Assembly (NCBI RefSeq): GCF_030362835.1
Contig: NZ_JAUCGQ010000001.1
Location: 1,529,461-1,593,460 of the forward strand
DNA: 64,000 bases
Direction of reading: 5' to 3'
From: Cellulomonas alba
GTDB taxonomy: Bacteria > Actinomycetota > Actinomycetes > Actinomycetales > Cellulomonadaceae
In this document: positions 193 through 17,530 of the stretch, one piece after another
Layout: each line of letters starts with the position of its first letter
Position numbering within the stretch: position 1 is the first letter of the stretch
Program-made: the position numbers and the translations under genes
The notes under the pieces: generated by a model
Told to the model about the DNA's origin: nothing
Databases searched by the model: none
What the model saw: the letters and a program-made list of their open reading frames with translations, nothing else

Positions 193-3100
193 TCAGCCCA
201 CGGTGCAGGTCGCGCCGTTGAGCGTGAACGACGTCGGCGTCGCGTTCGAGCCGGAGTACGACCCGTTGAAGCCGATGTCGGTGCTGCCACCGACCGGGAT
301 CGACTTGTTCCAGTCCATCGCCGTCGCCGTCACCGCGGAGCCGGACTGCGACCACGTCGCGCTCCAGCCCTGCGTCACCTGCTGGTTGCCCGCGAACGAG
401 AACTTGAGCGTCCACCCGTTGATCGCCGACGTCCCCGTGTTGGTGAGGTGCAGCTGCGCGGTGAAGCCCGTGTTCCAGTCGCTGTGGCCGTACGTGACCT
501 TGCACGCGCCCGTGGAGGAGCCCGCCTTGGTCGTGACGGACAGCGCCGAGGAGGCGGCCGAGACGTTCCCGGCGACGTCCTTGGCGCGGACCGTGTACTG
601 GTACGCCGTCGAGGCCGTGAGGCCCGAGTCGGTGTACGTGGTCGCCGCCGCACCGGTCGAGCCGACCTTGGCGCTGCCGCGGTACACGTCGTAGCCCGCG
701 AGGCCCGAGCCGCCCGTGTCCGTCGAGCCGGTCCACGTCAGCGTCACCGAGGTGTCGGTGACCGTCGTGGCCGTCAGGCCCGAGGGGACGGAGGGCGCGG
801 TGGTGTCCTGCGTCGGGCCGGACGTCGTCACCGAGAGCGCCGACGACGCCGCCGAGACGTTGCCCGCCACGTCACGGGCCCGGACGGTGTACGAGTACGC
901 CGTCGAGGGGTTGAGGCCCGTGTCCGTGAACGACGTGGTGGTCGTCGAGCCGACCTTCGTCGTGCCGCGGTAGACGTCGTAGCCCGCGAGGCCCGAGCCG
1001 CCGGTCTCGTCGGTCGACGCCGTCCAGCTGATCGACACGCTGTCCTGGCCGACCGTGCCGGCCTTGAGACCCGTCGGCACCGAGGGAGCCGTCGTGTCGC
1101 CGGACGCCGCCTTCGTCGTCACCGACAGCGCCGACGAGGCCGACGAGACGTTGCCCGCCACGTCGCGCGCCCGCACCGTGTAGCTGTACGCCGTCGAGGC
1201 CGTCAGCCCGGTGTCGGTGAACGACGTGGTGGTCGGCGAGCCGACCTTCGTCGTACCCCGGTAGACGTCGTAGCCGGCGACGCCGGAGTCGGCGTCGGTC
1301 GACGCCGTCCAGCTGAGCGCCACCGAGTTCGACGTGACCGTCCCGGCCTGCAGGCCGGTCGGCGTGGTCGGCGCGGTGGTGTCGGTCGTCGTCGTGGTGC
1401 CGAACAGGCGTGCGTAGTCCGCAAGCGCGGCCGCGATGGCCGTCTGCGCCCAGAACCGGTGGTAGTTGAAGGTCGGCGCGGCGCCGCCCTTCAGGTAGGT
1501 GTCGACCTTCGAGAACGCCGGGTCGTTCTTGTAGAACGAGCGGATGTCCAGGAAGGAGACGCCCGGCTTGATGGCGTCGCCGTTCGGCATCGTGCCGGTC
1601 CAGCCGGACGGGATGTACGTGCCGTCGGAGCCGGCGCCGCTGTAGACGTCGTCGAACCGCCCGTAGTCGGTGCGGGTCTCGGTCGTCGACACGCCCTTGG
1701 TGTCCTGGTCCGAGGCCCAGATGGCGTCGAGCAGCGCCTTCGCCTTCGCCTGGACCGTCGTGTCCTTCGCCTTGGCCGCGTAGAACAGGAGCGCACGGGC
1801 CGTGTCACCCGCGACACCCACGTCCTGGCCGTAGCTCTTGACCGTCACGTGCAGGTTGGTGTTCGCCTTGGGCGACGTGGGGTTCCACGTCTCGGGCGCG
1901 CCGCTCCACGTGAGGTCGGACGGGATCTGCCAGTCGGTGCCGTTGATCTTGATGTTGGCGACCACCCACGGGACCCACTTGTCGAGCACGGCCTTCGCCT
2001 GCGCGTTGCCCGACGTGTTGTAGAGCTCCGCCACGCGCTGCATGCTCCACGCCTGCATGCCGAACCACTGGTTCGACGGCGGGTCGTGGTAGACCGGCGC
2101 CTCGACGTACGAGAGGCCGTAGAAGGTCGGCGTGCCCGAGGGCGGCGCCGAGTACGAGCCGTCCCAGCTGTTCGTCGCGCCACCGGCGATGCCCCCCTCG
2201 GACGACTGCAGCCACGTGTAGAACTCGAGCTGGCGCGTCAGTGACGTCGCCCAGTCGGTCTTGGCGGTCGGGGACTTCGGCGTCAGCGACGGGTCGGTCG
2301 ACAACGCGTACGCCGCGAGCGGGTTCTGGTAGCCGAAGTGCGACGTCGACGAGCCGATGCGCCAGGCCCAGCCGGCGCTCGTGTCGAGCGCGCCGCCCCA
2401 CGCGTAGTACCAGGACAGCAGGTAGTTCGAGCTGTCCTTGCCGCTGCCCGCGGGGCACGACTGCGACGTGCAGCCGGGCTGCTTGAAGTACTTGTCGTAG
2501 AACGAGTACCGCAGGTAGTCGCCGAGCTTCGCGGCCTTGGCCACGGTGCCGGCGATGTCGGCCTGCTTGCCCTGCGCGGTGGCCCACTGGTTCGCCCAGT
2601 AGACGGCCTCGATCGCGCGCGCGTCGGCGTCGGGCGCATCCGTGTACTTCCACTGCTTGGCGTACGACGAGTCACCCGTGAACAGGTCGAGGTAGCCGTT
2701 CTTGCCGCCGTACTTGAACTCGTCGCACGAGGGCTGCGGCACGGTCTCCCACACCGACTCCTGCGGGCCGCGCTGGAACGTGTTGATGAACGACGTGCCG
2801 GTCGCCGACGGGCCGAGCTCGCAGCCCGTGCCCGGCGTCGCGCCGAAGCCGTACTTGTTGTCGACGTCCGCGAGCCAGTGCATGGCGTAGATGTCCGACG
2901 TGCCGTACGTCGACTTCAGCTCGGCCGCGAGCGGGTCCTTGCCGACCGACACGCCGCTGTTGAGCTGCGACGGGTACTTGTCGGGGGTGTTGTACTCCGA
3001 CGCGTACGTCGCGGGCTTGCTCGGGTCGTAGAACGAGTTGGTGGGCTGGTCCACGCTGGCCGGGATCATGTACTTCTCGAGCGTGTTCCACGCGGTGTTC

Positions 3101-3483
3101 AGCGTCGACCAGTCGCCCGTCACCTGGCCGTACAGCGCCTCGAGCCAGACGTAGTAGCTGTACGCCTCGGACGTGGTCTCGTGGCCGTAGTCGGGTGCCT
3201 CGACGATGAGCGTCTCGACCGAGTGGTACGGGATCCCCTGCGGCGAGAAGTAGCCGTTCGCCGGGTCGTGGATCTTGTTGTACATCGTGAGGAAGCGCTG
3301 CTTGTAGTCGTCGTCGCTCGTCGCCGCCGCCAGCGGGGCTGCGAGCTTGACGTTCGACGGCAGCGCCTGGATCAGCGACGGTGTCGCCGCCTGCGCGGAC
3401 GTGACCCCGGCGACAGCCAGGAGCGACGCGGCGCCGAGGAGCGACAGCGCCGCCCTCGCCGTCCGTCGGTGTGGTGAGGACAT
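193..3483 (-). CDS. cel48A: GH48 cellobiohydrolase with three FnIII modules and CBM2
   Basis: This is a secreted, processive, reducing-end cellulase for crystalline cellulose. The 1096-residue protein has a signal peptide of about 33 residues ending in SAQA, a GH48 catalytic module (about residues 35-695), three fibronectin III repeats starting with DTTAP near residues 701, 795 and 892, and a C-terminal CBM2 (about 990-1095) with paired cysteines and tryptophans. The [14 protein letters not shown] stretch contains the glutamate regarded as the GH48 general acid. Length and module order match C. fimi CbhB/Cel48A. The ATG at 3483 is chosen because a signal peptide follows it and GAAAGG precedes it. 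An in-frame upstream extension to 3792 looks untranslated. The FnIII repeats are near copies at DNA level. A candidate operator lies about 100 bases upstream. Confidence 0.96.
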
Positions 3484-3814: not shown

Positions 3815-4084
3815 ATGAGCAATGTCTCACGTCGCGGTGTCCAGACCCTGGCGCTCGCCGCCGGTGGCCTCGGGCTGGTCGCCGCCAGCCTGAGCGTGAT
3901 GTACATCGCGGGCCTGTTCGGCCTGTCGACGGCGTTCGCGAGCCAGATCGTCGCAGCGGTCAGCGTGGGCGGCTGGGTCCTGGCCGTCGTCATGGCCGCG
4001 ATCTCCGGTGGCATCGCCGGCGTCGTCGTCGCCACCGCGCGCTGGGCCATCACCCAGTGGGGCAAGGCCGCGGCCGTCGCCTGA
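3815..4084 (+). CDS. Circular bacteriocin-like precursor peptide
   Basis: The 89-residue peptide is very hydrophobic and glycine/alanine-rich. The segment from Ile31 (IAGLFGLSTAFASQIV, then VGGWV) aligns with circularin A (VAGALGVQTAAATTIV) and enterocin AS-48 (FGIPAAVAGTVL, then AGGWV). These are precursors of head-to-tail cyclised, membrane-permeabilising peptides. If cleavage falls before Ile31, the leader is 30 residues (MSNVSRRG plus a hydrophobic stretch) and the core is 59 residues, Ile31-Ala89. That core has only two charged residues, Arg76 and Lys84, and three tryptophans (54, 77, 82). AAAGAGG supports the ATG. It is the first gene of a long run that includes a SpoIIM-type protein and ABC genes, as in known circular bacteriocin clusters. 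The alignments are from memory. Confidence 0.8.
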   Translation: MSNVSRRGVQTLALAAGGLGLVAASLSVMYIAGLFGLSTAFASQIVAAVSVGGWVLAVVMAAISGGIAGVVVATARWAITQWGKAAAVA

Positions 4085-4101
4085 CGTCCGAGCCGATCCC
4101 T

Positions 4102-4653
4102 ATGACCGACACGGTCGTCGCCGGTGCCGCGACGTGGCGACGCGGCCTCGGCCGAGCGCTCGTCGCGGCGCCGGTGGTCGCCCTCGCCGGCGCCGCGCTC
4201 GGCTACGTGAGCCTGCGCGGCAGCCACGGCGGCACGGCTGCCGCGATCACGTCGAGCGCGACGTTCGGCGAGATCCTGGCGCGCAACGTCCCGGCCGCTC
4301 TCCTGCTGTTCTCCGGCGTCGCCACCGCGGCCAGCTCGACCGTCGTCGCGTTGCTGCTGCTCGGAGGGTACGTGGGCGCGACGTTCGCGACGGCCGCCAC
4401 CGCGGTCGGCACGGCGAGCGCGTTCGGGTCGATCGCGTCCTACGCACCGATCGAGCTGGCCGGCCTCGTGGTGGCCGCGGTCGGGGGCCTGCTCCCGGCG
4501 GCGGCGGTCGCCGCTCGTCCCGAGCCCGTGCGCCGCCGAGACGCGTACGCCGCCGCACTCCCACCCAGCCTCGGCCTGCTGCTGCTGTCGATCGCGCTGC
4601 TCGTGGTCGCCGCGGCAGTCGAGGCCCTCGTCATCCACGGACGGACACCATGA
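4102..4653 (+). CDS. SpoIIM/DUF95-type membrane protein of the bacteriocin cluster
   Basis: The 183-residue protein has about five membrane segments. It carries the family pattern of an Asn before a small-residue helix (ARNVPAALLLFSG), a GGYVGA turn, and a Pro-Ile-Glu near a helix start (SYAPIELAGL). Proteins of this type accompany almost all described circular bacteriocins (for example the As-48C and CclB group) and are thought to help maturation, secretion or immunity, though the step is unresolved. It starts 17 bases after the peptide gene and its stop overlaps the next ATG by four bases. Family membership was judged by pattern rather than a profile search. Confidence 0.7.
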   Translation: MTDTVVAGAATWRRGLGRALVAAPVVALAGAALGYVSLRGSHGGTAAAITSSATFGEILARNVPAALLLFSGVATAASSTVVALLLLGGYVGATFATAATAVGTASAFGSIASYAPIELAGLVVAAVGGLLPAAAVAARPEPVRRRDAYAAALPPSLGLLLLSIALLVVAAAVEALVIHGRTP

Positions 4654-5252
4654 CCGACACGTCCACGCTCGCCGGCGCGCGCGTCCGCGAGACCGACGGC
4701 GCACCGCCGGCGCGCGACCCCGGCGCCGACCGCCCGCGGCCGACCGCACCTCTGATGTGGCGGGTCGCCTTCGCGCTGACCGGCGTGCTGCTCGCGGCGC
4801 GCACACCCGTCCTGCGGGGCTACGTGGACGACCTCCTCGCCGACCACCCCGGCGTTCTCGACGGCCTCGACGACCCGCACCTGCGGCGCCTCGCCGTGAA
4901 CATCGGTCTCGGCCTGGCGGTCGCGACCAGCCTCGCGCTGCTCCTTCTCTATCAATCGCTCGCGCGAGCGCTGGAACGCCATGTCTTCACGCCGAGCATC
5001 GGCCGCCCGCGCATTCGCGTCGGATTGTTCTTCGTCATTTCTGTCGCGGTGACGCTGCCATTCCAGGCGGCGTGCGTCGTTCTTTCCCGGGTGACGCTGC
5101 GCACGAGCCCGTGGTATTACGTCGCGGTGCTCGTGCTCGCGGCGGGGGCGCCGTTGCTCTACCGCCGGCACTGGCGTGACGTCGGTGCCGGCCGCATCGC
5201 GGTGCTGTTCGCGGCGGCCACCGTCTTCGGCCTGCTGGCCACCCTCATCTAG
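4650..5252 (+). CDS. Membrane protein of the bacteriocin cluster
   Basis: The 200-residue protein has a polar N-terminus of about 35 residues and then roughly five hydrophobic segments (starting near WRVAFALTGVLL, LAVNIGLGLAVA, VGLFFVISVAV, YYVAVLVLAAG and IAVLFAAATVFG). The start ATG overlaps the previous stop (ATGA). No family is recognised. Position between the SpoIIM-type gene and the transport genes suggests a part in maturation or immunity. Bases about 4930-5140 use codons ending in T or A (ctt, tat, att, tct) unusually often for this genome, which hints at a foreign or recently acquired segment. Confidence 0.65.
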   Translation: MTDTSTLAGARVRETDGAPPARDPGADRPRPTAPLMWRVAFALTGVLLAARTPVLRGYVDDLLADHPGVLDGLDDPHLRRLAVNIGLGLAVATSLALLLLYQSLARALERHVFTPSIGRPRIRVGLFFVISVAVTLPFQAACVVLSRVTLRTSPWYYVAVLVLAAGAPLLYRRHWRDVGAGRIAVLFAAATVFGLLATLI

Positions 5253-5271
5253 GCCCGATCGGAGGCAAGTC

Positions 5272-5649
5272 GTGCTCTCGTCCCTCTACCGGAAGGCCCT
5301 CGCACCCGCCGCGGCGGTCGCGGGCGGCGTGCTCGTGCTCGTCGCGGTGCTGGTGCTCGTCGCCGACCACCTCGACGTGCCGGTCGCGGTGCCGCTCGCC
5401 CTCTGCGCCGTGGGGGTCGCGGCGGCCGTCGTGCTGGTCGGCCAGCGTCGGCGTGCCGTCTCGCTGGGCGCCGTCGTCACCGCCGTGCTCGGCCTCGTCG
5501 CGACGGCGGGGCTGTGGGGTGCCGTCCGCGCCACCGTGGCCGGGGGCGTGGCGGTCGTCCCGCTCGTGCTGTTCTTCGCGATCGCGGTCGTGGCGACGCT
5601 CGTGCGTGCCGAGGCCGCCGAGTCCGCGCGCACGTCGTCGATCGACTGA
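5272..5649 (+). CDS. Small four-helix membrane protein
   Basis: The 125-residue protein is made almost wholly of about four hydrophobic helices (AAAVAGGVLVLVAVLVLVAD, LALCAVGVAAAVVLV, AVVTAVLGLVATAGLWG and VVPLVLFFAIAVVATLV). The GTG start at 5272 follows GGAGG at 5261-5265. The next gene begins after three bases, so the two are probably co-translated. Small multi-helix proteins of this kind often provide self-immunity in circular bacteriocin clusters, and this is the best immunity candidate by size and place. That role is inferred only. Confidence 0.6.
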   Translation: MLSSLYRKALAPAAAVAGGVLVLVAVLVLVADHLDVPVAVPLALCAVGVAAAVVLVGQRRRAVSLGAVVTAVLGLVATAGLWGAVRATVAGGVAVVPLVLFFAIAVVATLVRAEAAESARTSSID

Positions 5650-5652
5650 GCC

Positions 5653-7140
5653 GTGCACCTGGTTGTCGCGCAGTGGCGCGCGGGCGCGACGCTGCGCGCG
5701 TTCCTGCAGGTGGACGCGCTCGGCTGGGACGTCACGACCTCGTGGTTCCGCCGCTCGGCGCGTCTCGGCATGGTGGTCGGGCTCGTCTGCCTCGCCGGCG
5801 CGGCGACGTTCGCGGCGGACCTCGCGCGGTCCGTGGTCGACCCGGTGCCGCAGGGCCACCTCGTGCCGCTCGCCGTCGCCGGGGTCGGCTACCTGGTCGG
5901 GCTCGGGGTCTGCCGGGAGACGCTCACCCGGCGGCGGGACCTCGTCGCCCACCCCGCGCACGTCGACGTGTACCGCGCGGTCGACCTCAACGCCGTCACG
6001 GTGTTCGTGCTCTGGGTGGCCTGGCCGATCGTGCGCCGGTGGCTCGTGGTCCTCGTGGTCGCCGTGCCGTTCCTGCAGGAGTTCACGCCCGAGCTGCGCA
6101 CCGAGGTCGATCCGCCGGCGCTCCTGCTCGGCGTCCTCGCGGCCGGCGCGTGCCTCGAGGTCGCCGTCGCCGCCGTGCTCGCCACGAGCGCGCGCACGTC
6201 GCGCACGGCCGTCGTGGTGGTGCTCCTCGCGGTCGGCGCCGTCGCGCTGGCCGGGCGCCGGGCTGCCGGCGTCGTCGACGGCACGGCGCTGGCGACGGCC
6301 CCGACGGCGTCGGCGGCGACGACGTCGCTCGTGCTCCGGCTCGCGACGTCGGTCGCGGTCGTGGCGAGCCTCGCGACGGTGGGCCACCGGCTGTGGGTGC
6401 TGGCTCTCGACGGCTTCCCGCTGCGCGACGAGGGTGCGGGGCCGCGACGGCCCCGGCGCCGCAGCGGCGCGCGCCGACCGGAGACGTGGTCCGTGGCCGC
6501 GACCGCGTCGGCGATGCTCGCCGGTCGACCGGGCCGGGTCCGCACGCGCATCCACGTCGGCCTCGTGCTCGCCCTGGTCGCCGCGCTCGGGCTCGCGCCC
6601 CTCGTGCGGCGGGTGCCGGGGCTGTCGCTGCACACCGCCGCCTTCTCGCTGACGTTCGTGGTCTCGCTCGCGCTCGTCGAGGTCGTGCTGTCGGCGGCCG
6701 GCCCGAACGCGCTCGCCGGCCAGCGCCGCATGACGTGGGAGCTCGGCGTGCCGCGCTGGTGGCTCGGCGCCAGCACGGTCGCGCTGGTCGCCGTCGACGT
6801 CGCGGCGGTCGGTGCCGGCGTCGCGCTCGTCGCCGGCCTCGTCGCGCCGCCCCTGGACGCCTCGCCGGTGCTCGTCTCGCTCGGGGTCGCGGGTGCCCTC
6901 GTGCTGGCCGACGTCGTGGTCCCGCCGCGGCGCGCGCCCGACGGCTCCGTCACCCCCTCCGTCTCCGGGGCGACGCTCGGCGTGATGCTCGCGGTCCCCG
7001 TGCTCGGCGTGCTCGCCGCCGGGCCTGCCGCCGTCCGGACCGCAGCCGCCGCGACGGTCGTCGCCGTCCTCCTGGGAGGAGGTGCCGCATGCGCGACGCG
7101 CGCCGTGACCACGATGTCGCACTCCGCCTCCGCGGCGTGA
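5653..7140 (+). CDS. Large multi-pass membrane protein, probable ABC transporter subunit
   Basis: The 495-residue protein has around ten hydrophobic segments in two halves, separated by a basic stretch near residues 260-280 (GPRRPRRRSGARRPET). The C-terminal half resembles the membrane part of ABC-2 type exporters. The last 52 bases overlap the following ATPase gene, a strong sign that the two products act together. Each half may correspond to one permease domain, giving a complete export channel with a homodimer of the ATPase. It is a candidate exporter for the bacteriocin-like peptide. No family name is assigned. Confidence 0.65.
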   Translation: MHLVVAQWRAGATLRAFLQVDALGWDVTTSWFRRSARLGMVVGLVCLAGAATFAADLARSVVDPVPQGHLVPLAVAGVGYLVGLGVCRETLTRRRDLVAHPAHVDVYRAVDLNAVTVFVLWVAWPIVRRWLVVLVVAVPFLQEFTPELRTEVDPPALLLGVLAAGACLEVAVAAVLATSARTSRTAVVVVLLAVGAVALAGRRAAGVVDGTALATAPTASAATTSLVLRLATSVAVVASLATVGHRLWVLALDGFPLRDEGAGPRRPRRRSGARRPETWSVAATASAMLAGRPGRVRTRIHVGLVLALVAALGLAPLVRRVPGLSLHTAAFSLTFVVSLALVEVVLSAAGPNALAGQRRMTWELGVPRWWLGASTVALVAVDVAAVGAGVALVAGLVAPPLDASPVLVSLGVAGALVLADVVVPPRRAPDGSVTPSVSGATLGVMLAVPVLGVLAAGPAAVRTAAAATVVAVLLGGGAACATRAVTTMSHSASAA

Positions 7141-7736
7141 CCGCCGGCTACGGGGAAGGGCCGGCCGTGCTCGAGGGGCTCGACCTCGAGCTGACCGGCA
7201 CCGGCCTGGTGTGGCTCGTCGGCCCGAACGGACGCGGCAAGTCGACCTTCGTGGAGCTCGCGAGCGGCTACCTGCGACCCCGCGTGGGCACGGTCGACGT
7301 CTTCGGCGTCCCCGCGCACCTGCCGACCGCGCGCGACCGTCGCCGCGTGTGCCGCAGCCGCGTGGCGCTGTTCCCCCAGATGACGGTCCGCGACCACCTC
7401 GCGTTCGGCTCGCTCGCCCGCGCGGTACCACGCGACGACGCGCTCGCCCGCGCGGAGCGGCTCGGCCTGGGCCCGTGGCTGGACTCCCGCGCCGGCACGC
7501 TCTCGACCGGCACCGCGCGCAAGGCCTGGATCGCGCTGTGCACCGTGGGCGCCGCCGACCTGCTGCTGCTCGACGAGCCGTTCGACGGCCTCGACGCTGA
7601 CTCGCGTGCCGCGCTCACGGAGGAGATCGCCACGTGGGCGCGCGACGCGCTCGTCCTGCTCGTCAGCCACACCGCCCCGACCGGCAGCGCTGCCGCGCGC
7701 CGGCTCTCGCTCGACCCCGAGGAGCTCCCCGCATGA
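7089..7736 (+). CDS. ABC transporter ATPase with atypical signature motif
   Basis: The 215-residue protein is one nucleotide-binding domain: Walker A GPNGRGKST (from residue 45), Q-loop Gln97, Walker B LLLLDEP (158-164) and switch His194. The signature position reads LSTGT (138-142) where LSGGQ is usual, so the Gly and Gln that contact ATP and the partner domain are changed. The start at 7089 lies 52 bases inside the preceding membrane gene behind GGGAGGAGG, and the stop overlaps the next start (ATGA). It probably powers the 5653-7140 protein in exporting the bacteriocin-like peptide. Confidence 0.85.
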   Translation: MRDARRDHDVALRLRGVTAGYGEGPAVLEGLDLELTGTGLVWLVGPNGRGKSTFVELASGYLRPRVGTVDVFGVPAHLPTARDRRRVCRSRVALFPQMTVRDHLAFGSLARAVPRDDALARAERLGLGPWLDSRAGTLSTGTARKAWIALCTVGAADLLLLDEPFDGLDADSRAALTEEIATWARDALVLLVSHTAPTGSAAARRLSLDPEELPA

Positions 7737-8617
7737 CGACCATCGACGTCCGCTCGGTCTCACGTCGCTACGGCGACGCGCTCGCCGTCGACGACGTGAG
7801 CTTCACGGTCCCGTCGGGCACCGTCACCGGGCTGCTCGGACCGAACGGGTCCGGCAAGTCCACGCTGCTGCGCCGCATCCTCGGGATCGATCCGGGGCAG
7901 GGAACGGCGCTGTTCGACGGCCGCCCGTACGTCGCGCTCGACGAGCCCGCCACCGTGGTGGGAGCCGTCCTCGACGCGAGTGGCATCCACCCCGGCCTCC
8001 GCGCGCGCCGGCACCTGCGGGCGGTCGCCGCCGCGCTGCGCGCGCCCGCGAGGCGCGTCGACGAGCTGCTCGCGCTCGTCGACCTGCCTCACGCCGGAGG
8101 AGTGCGCGCCCGGGCGCTCTCCCTCGGCATGCGGCAGCGCCTCGCGGTGGCGACCGCGCTCGTCGGGTCGCCGAGCGTCCTCGTGCTCGACGAGCCGACG
8201 AACGGGCTCGACCCGCACGGCGTCCGGTGGCTCGGGCGGTTCCTGCGCGGGTTCGCCGACAGCGGCGGCACGGTGCTCATGTCGTCCCACCTGCTCTCCG
8301 AGGTCGAGCACGTCGCGGACCGCGTCGAGGTCATCGCGCACGGTCGCCTCGTCGCCTCGGGGACCTGCGCCGAGATCGTGCGCTCCGTCGCCCCATCGGT
8401 CGTCGTCGCGCGCTCCACGGAACCAGGCGCCCTCCGTGACGCCCTCGTCGCCCGCGGCGCCGACGTCACGCGCGACGGCGACGAGCTGCGCGTCCGCGGC
8501 CTCGCGGTCGCCGACGTGGCGACAGTGGCGAAGACGGCACCGGGCCTCCTCCTGGCGCTCGGCACCGACGAGGGCTCCCTCGAGAGCGCGTACCTGACGA
8601 TCGCGGGCGCCCGGTGA
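7733..8617 (+). CDS. ABC transporter ATPase (second system of the cluster)
   Basis: This 294-residue protein has an ATPase domain with Walker A GPNGSGKST, signature LSLGMRQR, Walker B VLVLDEP and SSH switch, followed by a C-terminal domain of about 90 residues as in CcmA/drug-resistance type ATPases. It resembles the ATPases of antibiotic and lantibiotic self-protection exporters (DrrA/BcrA/NisF style). Its start and stop overlap its neighbours by four bases, and the next gene is its likely permease. In bacteriocin clusters such a pair commonly removes the peptide from the producer membrane, and immunity is the inferred role here. Confidence 0.85.
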   Translation: MTTIDVRSVSRRYGDALAVDDVSFTVPSGTVTGLLGPNGSGKSTLLRRILGIDPGQGTALFDGRPYVALDEPATVVGAVLDASGIHPGLRARRHLRAVAAALRAPARRVDELLALVDLPHAGGVRARALSLGMRQRLAVATALVGSPSVLVLDEPTNGLDPHGVRWLGRFLRGFADSGGTVLMSSHLLSEVEHVADRVEVIAHGRLVASGTCAEIVRSVAPSVVVARSTEPGALRDALVARGADVTRDGDELRVRGLAVADVATVAKTAPGLLLALGTDEGSLESAYLTIAGAR

Positions 8618-9405
8618 GCGGGCTGCGGTTCGAGCTCGTGCGCGCCGCGGGGCTGCGCTCGACGTGGCTGCTCGTGGGCCTCGGGCTCGGCGTGCACACG
8701 CTCGTGACGGGCGCCGTCGCGGCTTTCGTCGCGTACGGACCGGCGCCCGCCGGCGGGTACACCCCGGTCGACGTCGCGCGGCTCGTCGTCTCCGGGCCGC
8801 CGTTCCTGCCGCTCGCCGCGGCGATCCTCGGTGCCGTGCTCGGGGGGATGGACCACCGCCACCGGCTCCTCGAGCTCTCGCTGCTCGTGACGCCACGACG
8901 CGGGCGGCTGCTCGCCGGCAAGGCGGCGCTCGTCACGCTCGCGGCGGCGGCCCTCGCGGTGGCCGGCGTCCTGGCAGCCTGCGCCCTGCTCGCGGCGACC
9001 GGCCTCCCGCTCGGCGGCGTCCGGGCCGACCTCGTGCTCGGCCAGGTGGCGCGCGTGCTCGCCTGGGGCCTGGGCGCGCTGATGCTGGCGCTCGCGCTGC
9101 GCTCCCAGACCGCCGCCGTGGTCGCGGTGGTCGCGGGCGCCTTCCTCGTCGAGCCGGCGGTCCGGGCTGCCACCACGGCGGCGCCGCGGGGCTGGTGGAC
9201 GCACGTGCCGGACCATCTGGTGTTCGCGAGCTTCGACGGCCTCGTGCCGACCGCCACGGGGGGCGTGTTCACCAGTGCGGCGCGCCCGGGGCCGGCGAGC
9301 GCCGCGCTCGTCACCTGCGCGGCGCTCGGCCTGCTGACGTGGGGCGCGTGGCGCTCGCTGCGCGGTGGCGGTGCCCGCGGGCGCGGGGGCGCGGCGGTGG
9401 CGTAG
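8614..9405 (+). CDS. ABC-2 type permease (probable self-protection)
   Basis: The 263-residue protein has about six membrane segments and the outline of ABC-2 permeases: an N-terminal amphipathic start (MSGLRFELVRAAGLRSTWLL), a long first loop, and a basic turn PRRGRLLAGK near residue 95. The GTG start overlaps the stop of the ATPase (GTGA). The pair forms the last transport unit of the bacteriocin-like cluster. A four-copy 26-base repeat follows the stop, which makes this the likely cluster end. Confidence 0.8.
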   Translation: MSGLRFELVRAAGLRSTWLLVGLGLGVHTLVTGAVAAFVAYGPAPAGGYTPVDVARLVVSGPPFLPLAAAILGAVLGGMDHRHRLLELSLLVTPRRGRLLAGKAALVTLAAAALAVAGVLAACALLAATGLPLGGVRADLVLGQVARVLAWGLGALMLALALRSQTAAVVAVVAGAFLVEPAVRAATTAAPRGWWTHVPDHLVFASFDGLVPTATGGVFTSAARPGPASAALVTCAALGLLTWGAWRSLRGGGARGRGGAAVA

Positions 9406-9497
9406 CCACGGGGGCGCGGCCGGTGGGCACAGCCGCGGGGCGCGGCCGGTTGGCACAGCCGCGGGGCGCGGCGGGTGCCGTAGCCGCGCCCCTGCGG
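9394..9497. repeat. Four tandem 26-base repeats
   Basis: Units at 9394-9419, 9420-9445, 9446-9471 and 9472-9497. The two middle units differ at one position and the outer two are diverged. Each contains a version of GCACAGCCGCGGGGCGCGG. The first unit runs over the last codons of the permease gene, and the array stops three bases before the asd stop codon. It lies between convergent genes and may act in termination. The unit is too short and has no spacers, so it is not a CRISPR array. Confidence 0.8.
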
Positions 9498-9499
9498 CG

Positions 9500-11863
<2,364 letters not shown>

Positions 11864-12074
11864 TCAACGGCCCGCCGGGTGGGATTGGTCGCGGCGATGG
11901 TAGGCGCGTCGGCTGCCCGCCCGCCAACCCGATCACGATGCGAGCACGACCGCGGGCCGACGGCGTGTCGCCGCACGATCCACAGGCGGGTGGCCTGAAC
12001 TCCGGGGCCTCGCGTGCCGATGACAGTCCGGACCCACCCCGGGGCGGCACCACGCCCCCGACACCGGAACCTCG

Positions 12075-13847
12075 ATGCGCCACCGTCACCGCCACCGCCT
12101 CCGGCGCCTCGCGCCCGTCACCCCCCTCGTCGTCATCGGCCTCGCCGTGGCCTCGTTCACCGCCTCCCAGGCCTTCGCGCAGGAGCCGCGCATCGAGCCC
12201 GTCGGTCCCGTCGCGGTCAGCTCGGTCGGCTGGCGGTCGTTCCACGTCGACTGGGCGCGACCCGAGGGCGCGGCGAGCACCCGCATCGCCGTCGCGACCG
12301 ACCCGCTGATGCGGCACGTCGTCTGGAGCGAGCGCAGCGCCGCCGCGCGTCCGCACGCGTACGTCGACCGCGGGCTGACGGAGGGCACCGAGTACTTCCT
12401 CCAGGTGACGCCGTCGAACGGGAAGCGCGTCGGCGACCCGACCCCGGTGCGCGAGCTCCGGACCGGCTGGCGGCTGCCGGGCTACCTCGACGCGGTGCAC
12501 GTCGGCCAGGTCGGCACGGGCGGGTTCTCGCTCTCGTGGGCCAGGCCCACCGACGCGAGCTCGTACCGCGTCGTGGCCTCGGCGCACCCGGACCTGTCGC
12601 AGCCGTTCCTGGACGACGTGGTGTGGGAGACGTCGACGCGCGTCGCCGCGCCGCGCGACGGCGCCCGGTACTACGTCAGCGTGCTCCCGCTCCGCGGCAG
12701 CCACGAGAGCGCGCCGACCACCGCGAGCGTCACGCTGCCCGTCAAGCACGTGGCCGCCGTCCGGGCGCCGGTCGCGCAGCCGCGGTCCGACGGCACGTTC
12801 GACGTCCGCTGGCCCCAGGTCGCGAACGCGACGGGCTACACCGTGTCGCTGGCGAGCTCGCAGCACGGCCGGGCCGTCTGGACGTCGAAGCCGACCGCCG
12901 CCGCGTCGATGCGCACCCCGGCCGGCGTCGCCCGGTCGCTCCGGGGCATCGTCTGGGTGCGCGTCACCGCCAGCCGGTTCGGCCGCGTGCCGCGGACGTC
13001 GGGCTCGGTGGCCACCGCGCGCGTCCAGGGTGCCGTCACGGGCCGTCCGCGGCTGACGATCAAGGTCGCGTCGTACAACCTGCTCGGCCCGCAGTACCGG
13101 GCGCACGGCGGCGAGAGCTGGCGGACGCGGTTCGCGGCCGAGGGCAGGGCGTTGCGCGGCTTCGACGTGGCGGGCGTCCAGGAGGCGCCGCGGACCTTCC
13201 ACGGAGGGTCTCCCCAGCAGGTCGTCGCGCGCCATGCCCGTCTGACGATCGCGCGGCACCCGTCGAGCCACCGCGACTGCGCGGCCGGCAGCACGCCGAT
13301 CCTGTACCGCGCGTCGCGCTTCCAGCTGACGGCCTGCGGCTCGACCCGCGTCTCGGACACGCGGCGCGACCAGCCGCGGTACGTGACGTGGGCCGTGCTG
13401 CGCGACAAGGCGACGCACCGCTCGGTGCTCGTCGCGGACACGCACCTGACGGCGCACCTGGAGGGCGCGGGCTCGCGCGCGGCGGCGGCCGAGCGGCTGC
13501 GGCAGGCCCGCCGGGTCGCCGCGGTGATCCGCCGCCACAACCCGCACCACCTGCCCGTCGTGCTGGTCGGCGACCTCAACAGCTACCTCGGCAGCGCCCC
13601 GGCGACGCCCGTCGGCGTCTTCGCGCAGGCCGGCCTCGCGGACGGCGAGCTCACCGCGGACCGGCTCGTGGGCACGCGGTGGAACTCGTACCACGGGTTC
13701 CACGCGACGAAGGCGCGCGGCCACCACCTCGACCATGTGCTGACGTCGAGCGGCACGCGGGTCGTGAGCCTCGAGGTACGCCGGACGAACGAGCGGCACG
13801 CGCCGTCGGACCACCACCGGGTGTCGGCGGTCATCGCGATCGGGTGA
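12075..13847 (+). CDS. Secreted FnIII plus endonuclease/exonuclease/phosphatase-family protein
   Basis: The 590-residue protein has a signal peptide (positive start [12 protein letters not shown], hydrophobic core, cut near SQAFAQ), about 290 residues that look like three fibronectin III-type modules, and a C-terminal EEP domain from about residue 330. The EEP metal and catalytic motifs are present: VASYNLL, the Glu in VQEAP, DTHLTAH, GDLNSY and HAPSDHHRV. Such enzymes cleave phosphodiesters in DNA, RNA or phospholipids, and the substrate cannot be read from sequence. It stands alone on the plus strand beside lysC. The 245-base gap upstream shows no clear element. Confidence 0.85.
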
Positions 13848-15437: not shown

Positions 15438-16433
15438 ATGACGACGCAGGACGCGGCCGCGGAGGCCGCCGGCAGCGGGACGACGACCGACGACGGCATC
15501 GTGGTGCGGGGCGTGACGCGCGCGTTCGGCGCGGTGCAGGCTCTCGCGGGCGTGGACCTCGAGGCGAGGCCGGGCGCGGTGACGGCGCTCGTCGGCCCGA
15601 ACGGCTCGGGCAAGACGACGCTGCTGCTCGTCCTCGCGGGGCTGCTGACGCCCGACGGCGGCGAGGTCAGCGTCGCCGGCCACGACCCGGTGACGGCCGG
15701 CCCGGCCGCGCGGGCGCGCACCGGCTGGATGCCCGACGCGTTCGGCACGTGGGACTCGCTGACCGCGCGCGAGGTGCTGACCACGTTCGCCGACGCGTAC
15801 CGCCTGGACCGGGCGCCGTCGCGACGCCGCATCGACGAGCTGCTCGCCACCGTGCACCTCACCGAGTACGCCGACCGGCCCGCGAGCGTCCTGTCGCGCG
15901 GCCAGAAGCAGCGCCTGGGCCTCGCGCGCGCGCTCGTCCACGACCCGCAGGTGCTGCTGCTCGACGAGCCCGCCTCCGGTCTCGACCCGCGCTCGCGCGT
16001 CGACCTGCGCCAGCTCCTGCGCCGCCTCGCCGACGAGGGCCGCACCGTGCTCGTGTCGAGCCACGTCCTCACCGAGCTCGAGGAGATGTCCGACGACGCC
16101 GTGTTCCTGTCGCGCGGTCGGACCGTCGTGCCGGACACCTCGCACGGCGTCACGAGCCCCGGCGACGGACGCCGCACGTTCCACGTCCGCGCACTGTCGC
16201 TGCCCGCGCTGACGGCGTGGCTCGACGCGGCCGGCGCCGCCTGGCGACCCGACGAGCCCTGGACCGCGCCAACCACCGGACCGGGCGGCGTGCTGGTCGA
16301 GGTGAACGGCGACGAGGGCGCTGCCGCGCTCATCCGCGACGCGGTCGCGGGAGGCGTGCCGCTCGTGTCGGCGGCGCCGGCGGCGGGCGCGCTCGAACGC
16401 GCCTACCTGACGCTCGAGGAGGAGCGGCGATGA
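15438..16433 (+). CDS. ABC transporter ATPase
   Basis: The 331-residue protein has Walker A GPNGSGKTT, signature LSRGQKQR, Walker B VLLLDEP and switch SSH, plus a C-terminal domain of about 110 residues typical of ABC-2 partner ATPases. TACCGT at 15425-15430 with seven bases to the ATG suggests a leaderless transcript. The stop overlaps the permease start (ATGA), so the two form one exporter. The substrate is unknown. Confidence 0.88.
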   Translation: MTTQDAAAEAAGSGTTTDDGIVVRGVTRAFGAVQALAGVDLEARPGAVTALVGPNGSGKTTLLLVLAGLLTPDGGEVSVAGHDPVTAGPAARARTGWMPDAFGTWDSLTAREVLTTFADAYRLDRAPSRRRIDELLATVHLTEYADRPASVLSRGQKQRLGLARALVHDPQVLLLDEPASGLDPRSRVDLRQLLRRLADEGRTVLVSSHVLTELEEMSDDAVFLSRGRTVVPDTSHGVTSPGDGRRTFHVRALSLPALTAWLDAAGAAWRPDEPWTAPTTGPGGVLVEVNGDEGAAALIRDAVAGGVPLVSAAPAAGALERAYLTLEEERR

Positions 16434-17530
16434 CGACGGTCGAGCTCGACGAGCACCCGGTGGCGGTCCCCCCGGCCCACCCGGGTCACTGGCACGTCAC
16501 GTGGCACGGCGTTCGGACGGTCGCGGCGCTCGAGCTGCGCCAGCGCGTGCGGTCGACGCGCTGGGTGGTCGCGCTCGTCGCGTGGTTCGTCGTGGTGGGC
16601 GGCCTGACGCTGCTCATCTCGGGCGCGCTCTCGGCGGTGGACGACGGCGCCGACCGCCAGCGTGGTGCGCTGCTCTTCGCTGCCGTGACGTTCCTGGTGC
16701 TGGGCCTCGGCCTGCTCGTGACGCCGACGCTGGCCTCGACGTCGATCAACGGCGACCGCGCGGCCGGCACCCTCGCGACGCTGCAGGTCACGCTCCTGAC
16801 CCCCGCCGAGATCGCGCTCGGCAAGGTGCTCGCCGCCTGGACCGCGTCCTGCGCGTTCCTGCTGGCGAGCGTGCCGTTCCTGGGGTTCGCCGCGGCCGTC
16901 GGACCGACGCCGTGGTGGTCCGTGCTCCGGGTGGTGGTGCTCGTCGCGGTGCTGCTCGCGGCGGTCTGCGGCATGGGCCTCGGGTTCTCCGCGCTGGTCG
17001 CGCGGCCCGCCGGCTCGACCGTGCTGACGTTCGTCACGGTGGCGGCGCTCGTGCTCGGCACTCCCCTGCTGTTCGGCGTCACCTACCCGTCCGTCGAGCA
17101 GACCGAGTCGGTCCAGGTCCGCGTCCAGCGCACCGACGACGTGACCGGCAACCCGACGACGTGCGAGCTGACGACGCAGCAGCGCTCCGTCGCGCACACC
17201 GAGCGCACGTGGTGGCTGCTCGCGCTGAACCCGTTCGTCGTGATGGCGGACGGCGCCGGGACGTCGAGCTCGCTGGACCAGGCCGAGGCCCGCAACGACC
17301 CGCTCGGCGTGCTGCGCGAGGGCGTCCGCCTGGCGCGCACCGGGGCGTCCGCCACGATCGACGAGTGCTGGGGCGTCGACGGCGGCCGGGTCGAGCCGAC
17401 CGCGGACGCGCCGATCTGGCCGTGGGGCCTGGGCGTCAACCTGCTGCTCGGGGCCGCCGGGTTCGTGGTCGCGGTGCGGCGGCTGTCGCTGCCGCAGGGG
17501 AAGCTCGCGCGGGGCACCCGGGTGGCGTGA
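16430..17530 (+). CDS. ABC-2 type permease
   Basis: The 366-residue protein has six or seven membrane segments, the first near residue 48 (WVVALVAWFVVVGGL) and the last near 335. A conserved ABC-2 stretch, INGDRAAGTLATLQVTLLTPAEI, follows the second helix. A large extracytoplasmic loop (about 215-320) has two cysteines, in TTCELTTQQ and IDECWG, that could form a disulfide. It partners the ATPase encoded just upstream. The pair lies as an island on the plus strand within the minus-strand lysC/recR/dnaX block. Confidence 0.85.
   Translation: MTTVELDEHPVAVPPAHPGHWHVTWHGVRTVAALELRQRVRSTRWVVALVAWFVVVGGLTLLISGALSAVDDGADRQRGALLFAAVTFLVLGLGLLVTPTLASTSINGDRAAGTLATLQVTLLTPAEIALGKVLAAWTASCAFLLASVPFLGFAAAVGPTPWWSVLRVVVLVAVLLAAVCGMGLGFSALVARPAGSTVLTFVTVAALVLGTPLLFGVTYPSVEQTESVQVRVQRTDDVTGNPTTCELTTQQRSVAHTERTWWLLALNPFVVMADGAGTSSSLDQAEARNDPLGVLREGVRLARTGASATIDECWGVDGGRVEPTADAPIWPWGLGVNLLLGAAGFVVAVRRLSLPQGKLARGTRVA

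Follow-up and report, generated by a model that had tools for sequence, protein, structure and literature searches.

Do eight closely packed genes in Cellulomonas alba encode a circular bacteriocin, and what would such a system add to a class known mainly from Firmicutes? The genes lie at positions 3815-9405 of the 64,000-nucleotide stretch of contig NZ_JAUCGQ010000001.1 analysed here (the window). A first-pass annotation, made from the sequence alone, had described a hydrophobic peptide followed by seven tightly ordered genes in a Cellulomonas-type genome, and had read them as a head-to-tail cyclised bacteriocin system. The genus was correct, and a relative of the cluster occurs in Cellulomonas triticagri; the eight frames, designated A to H, were all confirmed and are intact (Table 1). 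Successive genes are separated by +17, -4, +19, +3, -52, -4 and -4 nt (negative values being overlaps), the G+C content at third codon positions is coding-like in all eight (0.89-0.96), and purine-rich stretches resembling ribosome-binding sites precede A and F. Clusters that combine a circular bacteriocin precursor with SpoIIM and ATP-binding cassette (ABC) genes are of a known kind (PMC8659200, PMC8534725, PMC5695211, PMC7132975, PMC13289728). The eight genes very probably make up a complete cluster for a class I circular (head-to-tail cyclised) bacteriocin, a reading supported by family profiles and synteny and, more weakly, by predicted fold.

Table 1. Genes of the cluster, predicted parts of the precursor, and flanking genes (window positions)
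Feature	Position	Strand	Length	Basis of assignment
A, precursor	3815-4084	+	89 aa	PF09221 and TIGR03651 below cut-off; profile of relatives
A, predicted leader (residues 1-30)	3815-3904	+		
A, predicted core (residues 31-89)	3905-4081	+		
B, SpoIIM (DUF95) membrane protein, class-marking gene	4102-4653	+	183 aa	PF01944
C, membrane protein of no recognised family	4650-5252	+	200 aa	orthologue profile, synteny
D, small membrane protein	5272-5649	+	125 aa	position and size
E, polytopic membrane protein	5653-7140	+	495 aa	orthologue profile, predicted fold
F, ABC ATPase	7089-7736	+	215 aa	ABC_tran
G, ABC ATPase of second transporter	7733-8617	+	294 aa	ABC_tran
H, permease of second transporter	8614-9405	+	263 aa	orthologue profile, weak ABC2_membrane_4
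GH48 cellulase, flank of cluster	196-3480	-		named by Pfam; three fn3 stretches and CBM2
asd (aspartate-semialdehyde dehydrogenase), other flank	9500-10552	-		named by Pfam

A three-row precursor alignment, scanned against 84,980 species genomes, returned 112 pattern matches, nine of which encode a relative of A, namely in an Actinomycetales metagenome-assembled genome (MAG; L036, from a dolphin mouth by its isolate name), Arthrobacter bambusae, Microbacterium paulum, Arthrobacter sp. MI7-26, Microbacterium sp. GCS4, Galliscardovia ingluviei (L041), Pseudarthrobacter sp. HLT1-5, Cutibacterium avidum ATCC 25577 (L043) and C. triticagri (L044, genome G035). Two further relatives, L025 (G819) and L029 (G836), were obtained by family-profile searches, and with the window these make up a comparison set of 12 clusters; start codons in the relatives are approximate, some having been assigned manually on the basis of reading frames and motifs. 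L029, the weakest of the set (18.7 bits with PF09221, under the cut-off), was retained for its precursor match, SpoIIM match and gene order. The order A-B-C-D-E-F is found in every cluster, with similar product sizes (A 89-96, B 180-209, C 179-200, D 119-133, E 377-531 and F 182-221 aa). G and H follow F in nine clusters but not in Galliscardovia, C. avidum or L029, and in the first and last of these an ATPase matching the G profile lies elsewhere in the compared locus. The window cluster belongs to an actinobacterial branch of the class that is small and patchily distributed.

Other matches were set aside. Six (L004-L009, from five genomes) lay in long frames of other proteins or lacked a peptide-sized gene and were taken as chance, and L015/L028, L016/L026, L020/L030, L031, L032, L034 and L035 were dropped, likewise judged to be chance; of these, L026 and L030 were inspected for gene layout and L028 by a search, and the others were taken to be partial matches in long open frames. 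L027 (G407) and L022-L024 (G281, G207 and G303) resemble circular bacteriocin clusters with a different arrangement, L023 and L024 as judged from searches, and were kept outside the 12. In L027, from the same class as the window genome, a different circularin-type precursor ending in KYAAAW is encoded at about 9111-13047 on the reverse strand, where a SpoIIM-like gene and a gene for a large membrane protein accompany it in an order unlike that of the window cluster. The L022, L023 and L024 precursors, from another class of the phylum, score 44-46 bits, well over the PF09221 cut-off, and in L022, the one of the three inspected for gene layout, the SpoIIM-like gene comes after the large membrane gene.

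The first-pass annotation had likened the peptide to circularin A and AS-48. A matches Pfam Bacteriocin_IId (PF09221) with 21.4 bits (E 2.9e-4) and NCBIfam circ_ocin_uber (TIGR03651) with 21.8 bits (E 1.8e-4), and the failure to reach the curated PF09221 threshold of 23.6 bits weighs against the assignment. The TIGR03651 cut-off is 30.7 bits, and A is therefore outside the circularin A/uberolysin subfamily as curated. As both scores are under the curated cut-offs, such a gene could escape routine annotation. In a phmmer search of Protein Data Bank (PDB) sequences with E up to 10, A retrieved two sequences only, both AS-48 (E 0.024 and 0.025). A profile of the 11 related precursors, with the window peptide left out, gave 105.7 bits for A, 7.2 bits for the next-best frame of the window and at best 8.2 bits for 2000 shuffled copies of A. 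Since this profile separates A from the other frames and from the shuffled copies, the likeness of A to circular bacteriocins is taken as settled and, judged by sequence, is beyond chance. A 12-member precursor profile run against 20 test proteins found the AS-48 precursor with 36.2 bits and the next protein with 3.5. At an E-value of 0.01, PF09221 matches 11 of the 12 precursors, and two, those of L025 (30.5 bits) and C. avidum (29.9 bits), exceed its cut-off; given these matches and the recovery of AS-48, A is assigned the circular-bacteriocin core domain. By hhalign, residues 10-89 align with residues 21-115 of the AS-48 precursor (95% probability), and hence both leader and core are aligned. 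The actinobacterial leaders align with the hydrophobic AS-48 leader at a GLALxSxS-like stretch, which could be a chance hydrophobic likeness; leaders of circular bacteriocins are described as poorly conserved (PMC5695211).

Under this assignment, the first 30 residues of A would form a hydrophobic leader. Cleavage behind Y30 would remove it and expose I31 as the new N-terminus, which would be joined to the C-terminal A89. The position of the cut is taken from an alignment of all 12 precursors and from the analogous site in flexusin A; it is preceded by an aromatic residue in 11 of them, and the terminal Ala is kept. The most likely product is thus predicted to be a 59-residue circle of four helices, very hydrophobic and weakly cationic (net +2), with a calculated mass of 5666.6 Da (average; 5663.12 Da monoisotopic, neutral), 18 Da below the linear core. 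The predicted core has the same length in 11 of the 12 precursors, the exception being the 63-residue core of C. triticagri (L044, 7938-8228), where a four-residue insertion lies just before the last two residues. A PDB search with the predicted core structure (E up to 10) gave the bacteriocin NKR-5-3B (2mp8) as its sole match, with 24-28% identity over aligned residues. The circle would be exported by an ABC exporter formed by E and F, and would kill related Gram-positive bacteria via membrane damage. Membrane damage is the mode of action of the circular bacteriocin class.

B was predicted to be SpoIIM/DUF95-like, and it scores 38.6 bits with PF01944 (formerly DUF95), over the cut-off of 26.9; a SpoIIM match at E 0.01 was obtained for 11 of the 12 orthologues, and residues E118 and E174 are invariant in all of them. 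This neighbour of the precursor bears on the possibility that A acts on membranes as a linear peptide, leaderless or signal-anchored, and is never cyclised. A simple count of two hydrophobic segments in A would suit such a peptide, as would the saposin-like fold common to circular and leaderless bacteriocins (PMC5695211), but a SpoIIM gene next to the precursor is described as the feature that defines the circular class (PMC13289728) and is part of its typical cluster (PMC8659200). A also matches the circular-bacteriocin models, if below cut-off, and aligns with the AS-48 precursor including its leader, and the related precursors keep the length of the core and the residues on either side of the junction. 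A linear peptide is accordingly considered improbable, and a cyclised product is preferred.

The remaining membrane proteins are less easily named, and no Pfam or NCBIfam model was passed at its cut-off by C, D, E or H. C is found in all 12 clusters and scores 100.7 bits with a profile of its 11 orthologues; a role in maturation or immunity may be inferred for it. D, with about four hydrophobic segments, keeps its position and size in every cluster, shares 16-27% identity with the other D proteins with no invariant column, and gave no match to the orthologue sequence profile at E 0.01; it is a candidate immunity or accessory protein. A Colicin_V label for C (E 1.1e-4) and the TgpA_N (E 2.2e-4), AA_permease, TM7S3_TM198 and DUF2108 labels for D are not trusted, as each was found in one of the 12 members and the sequences are membrane-rich. 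E has about 12 hydrophobic segments and scores 113.1 bits with its orthologue profile, and none of the 12 orthologues has a Pfam match at E 0.01. Its predicted fold is nearest to the ABC-2 permeases NosY and a mycobacterial pump (moderate Z), and on this model E probably carries both permease halves of an ABC-2-type exporter on a single polypeptide. B, C and D would be the likeliest helpers, in the membrane, of maturation and self-protection.

Two ABC ATPases had been proposed in the first-pass annotation, and in a Pfam scan of the window copies of F, G and H both F (67.5 bits) and G (93.3 bits) exceeded the ABC_tran cut-off. F is conserved in all 12 clusters and is presumed to be the motor of E. 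For the AS-48 genes of Enterococcus plasmid pPD1 (L045), the names As-48A to H used here are our own assignment, made largely from gene order; the F family profile scored 80.2 bits with the presumed As-48D and 39.1 with the presumed As-48G. The best NCBIfam match of G is a lantibiotic-protection ATPase model (177.3 bits, under the cut-off of 309.75). H, which matches ABC2_membrane_4 weakly (E 0.091, under the cut-off) and scores 70.0 bits with its orthologue profile, overlaps G by 4 nt. G and H make up a second ABC transporter, which would most likely confer immunity. A further pair of ABC ATPase and ABC-2 permease genes, outside the cluster, lies at 15438-17530 on the forward strand.

The distribution of the cluster was assessed with a 12-row precursor alignment, which matched two of 81 genomes of the genus (the window genome and C. 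triticagri) and one of 268 sampled from the order (again the window genome). The order count may be too low, as at most 19 candidates were scored per genome and the sample need not have included C. triticagri, G819 and G836. Searched singly, these three all match, as alignment rows must. With PF09221 at E 0.01, matches were obtained in 7/396 genomes from the phylum and 5/396 from the order, the window genome being in both and several matches being due to chance; those over the cut-off are the L022-L024 genomes and G819. TIGR03651 at E 0.01 matched 5/394 genomes of the class, none over its cut-off. The identities of the window proteins to those of the MAG and of C. triticagri are 71 and 34% for A, 40 and 34% for B, 37 and 29% for C, 21 and 19% for D, and 26 and 24% for E, the last two pairs barely differing, and the order is reversed for F (44 and 47%). 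In a concatenated tree, the window cluster is joined with that of the MAG (support 100); several deeper splits have support of 25-49, and no further history is therefore drawn from it.

The same data bear on whether the genes could encode a membrane stress or housekeeping complex, with a SpoIIM protein and an ABC transporter with a small subunit, rather than a bacteriocin system. SpoIIM proteins are widespread, with matches in 8 of 14 control genomes, and the four genes that exceed no family cut-off would fit such a complex. PF09221 is silent in 14 of 14 control genomes, however, the cluster occurs in just two genomes of the genus, and the window's genome has a separate and stronger SpoIIM gene elsewhere (126.5 bits). 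In the congener G002, GH48 and asd genes adjoin with about 350 nt between them, at the place of the cluster in the window, and a genome-wide precursor search gave no match. None of the relatives found has the peptide in a housekeeping complex, and this explanation is regarded as very unlikely. The bacteriocin assignment is thus retained.

As to origin, asd was found in 53 of 57 other relatives, and the region beyond it was inspected in 29 (in two over less than 1 kb), one of which, G002, showed the adjoining GH48 gene. Horizontal acquisition is the simplest account of the cluster, and loss in relatives is possible. Relatives were not found by tblastn in viral contigs or a plasmid collection, and hence no phage or plasmid link is seen. 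In the window, A lies head to head with the GH48 gene, the start of which was judged by eye, and they have an upstream region of about 330 nt in common, through which expression of both may be coupled.

What the cluster could contribute concerns maturation. The enzyme for leader removal and ring closure of circular bacteriocins had not been identified as of 2021 (PMC8659200), and the more interesting point is therefore that the six-gene set of this branch includes no recognised peptidase. In these clusters the sequences of C, D and E have drifted so far apart as to be barely recognisable, while the junction residues of A are kept. A tentative proposal, which we hold to be less probable than not by a wide measure, is that this actinobacterial lineage has a fixed core A-F in which the cyclising and leader-cleaving activity resides in B, C and D, beside a tandem ABC-2 exporter of E and F, and not in a host protease. 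If true, the enzyme that matures circular bacteriocins would prove to be a novel type of membrane complex. The compact syntenic branch, in which three of the 12 clusters are reduced to the six genes, offers a small, defined set for this question. The cluster also predicts an antibacterial candidate peptide from Cellulomonas that is easily checked.

The suggestion that an actinobacterial member could be new holds in part. A mining survey of 6,928 precursors assigned 6,925 to Firmicutes, two to Actinobacteria and one to Thermotogae (PMC8534725), and avidumicin, a cyclic bacteriocin from C. avidum, has been published (Koizumi et al. 2023, cited in PMC11943950). The anatomy of the actinobacterial branch, with a conserved set that shows no recognised peptidase, is new here, and the class is spread, if patchily, over more of Actinomycetota than the two of 6,928 in that survey. 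The main texts of the circular bacteriocin mining papers, considered apart from their supplements, do not mention Cellulomonas, and a literature search, which left subscription papers mostly uncovered and could thus have missed an earlier report of the cluster, found nothing pairing 'circular bacteriocin' with 'Cellulomonas'.

Among the described systems, AS-48 likewise has a long-leader precursor, a SpoIIM protein, a large polytopic protein, an ABC ATPase and a second ABC set. It differs in that the large membrane gene precedes SpoIIM, whereas in the window SpoIIM directly follows A, and in that its second transporter has an annotated adaptor subunit that is absent from the window cluster; AS-48 chains have 70 residues, and E has no detectable sequence match to the presumed As-48B. 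The window peptide has a core opening IAG-x-[FL]G-[LI] and a Y|I cleavage in common with flexusin A, but its predicted leader of 30 residues contrasts with 6 in flexusin A and 3 in circularin A (PMC11943950), and it ends in Ala where flexusin A has Tyr. NKR-5-3B, named as a circular bacteriocin (PMC13289728), has 64 residues rather than 59. The closest counterpart to a described product is in C. avidum ATCC 25577, where L043 is the single PF09221 match in the genome at E 0.1, and its peptide is therefore proposed to be avidumicin. The L043 cluster has genes A-F in the same order as the window, and its precursor and core are 51% and 66% identical to those of A; it differs in the absence of G-H after F and in a predicted core with a net charge of +5, against +2 in the window.

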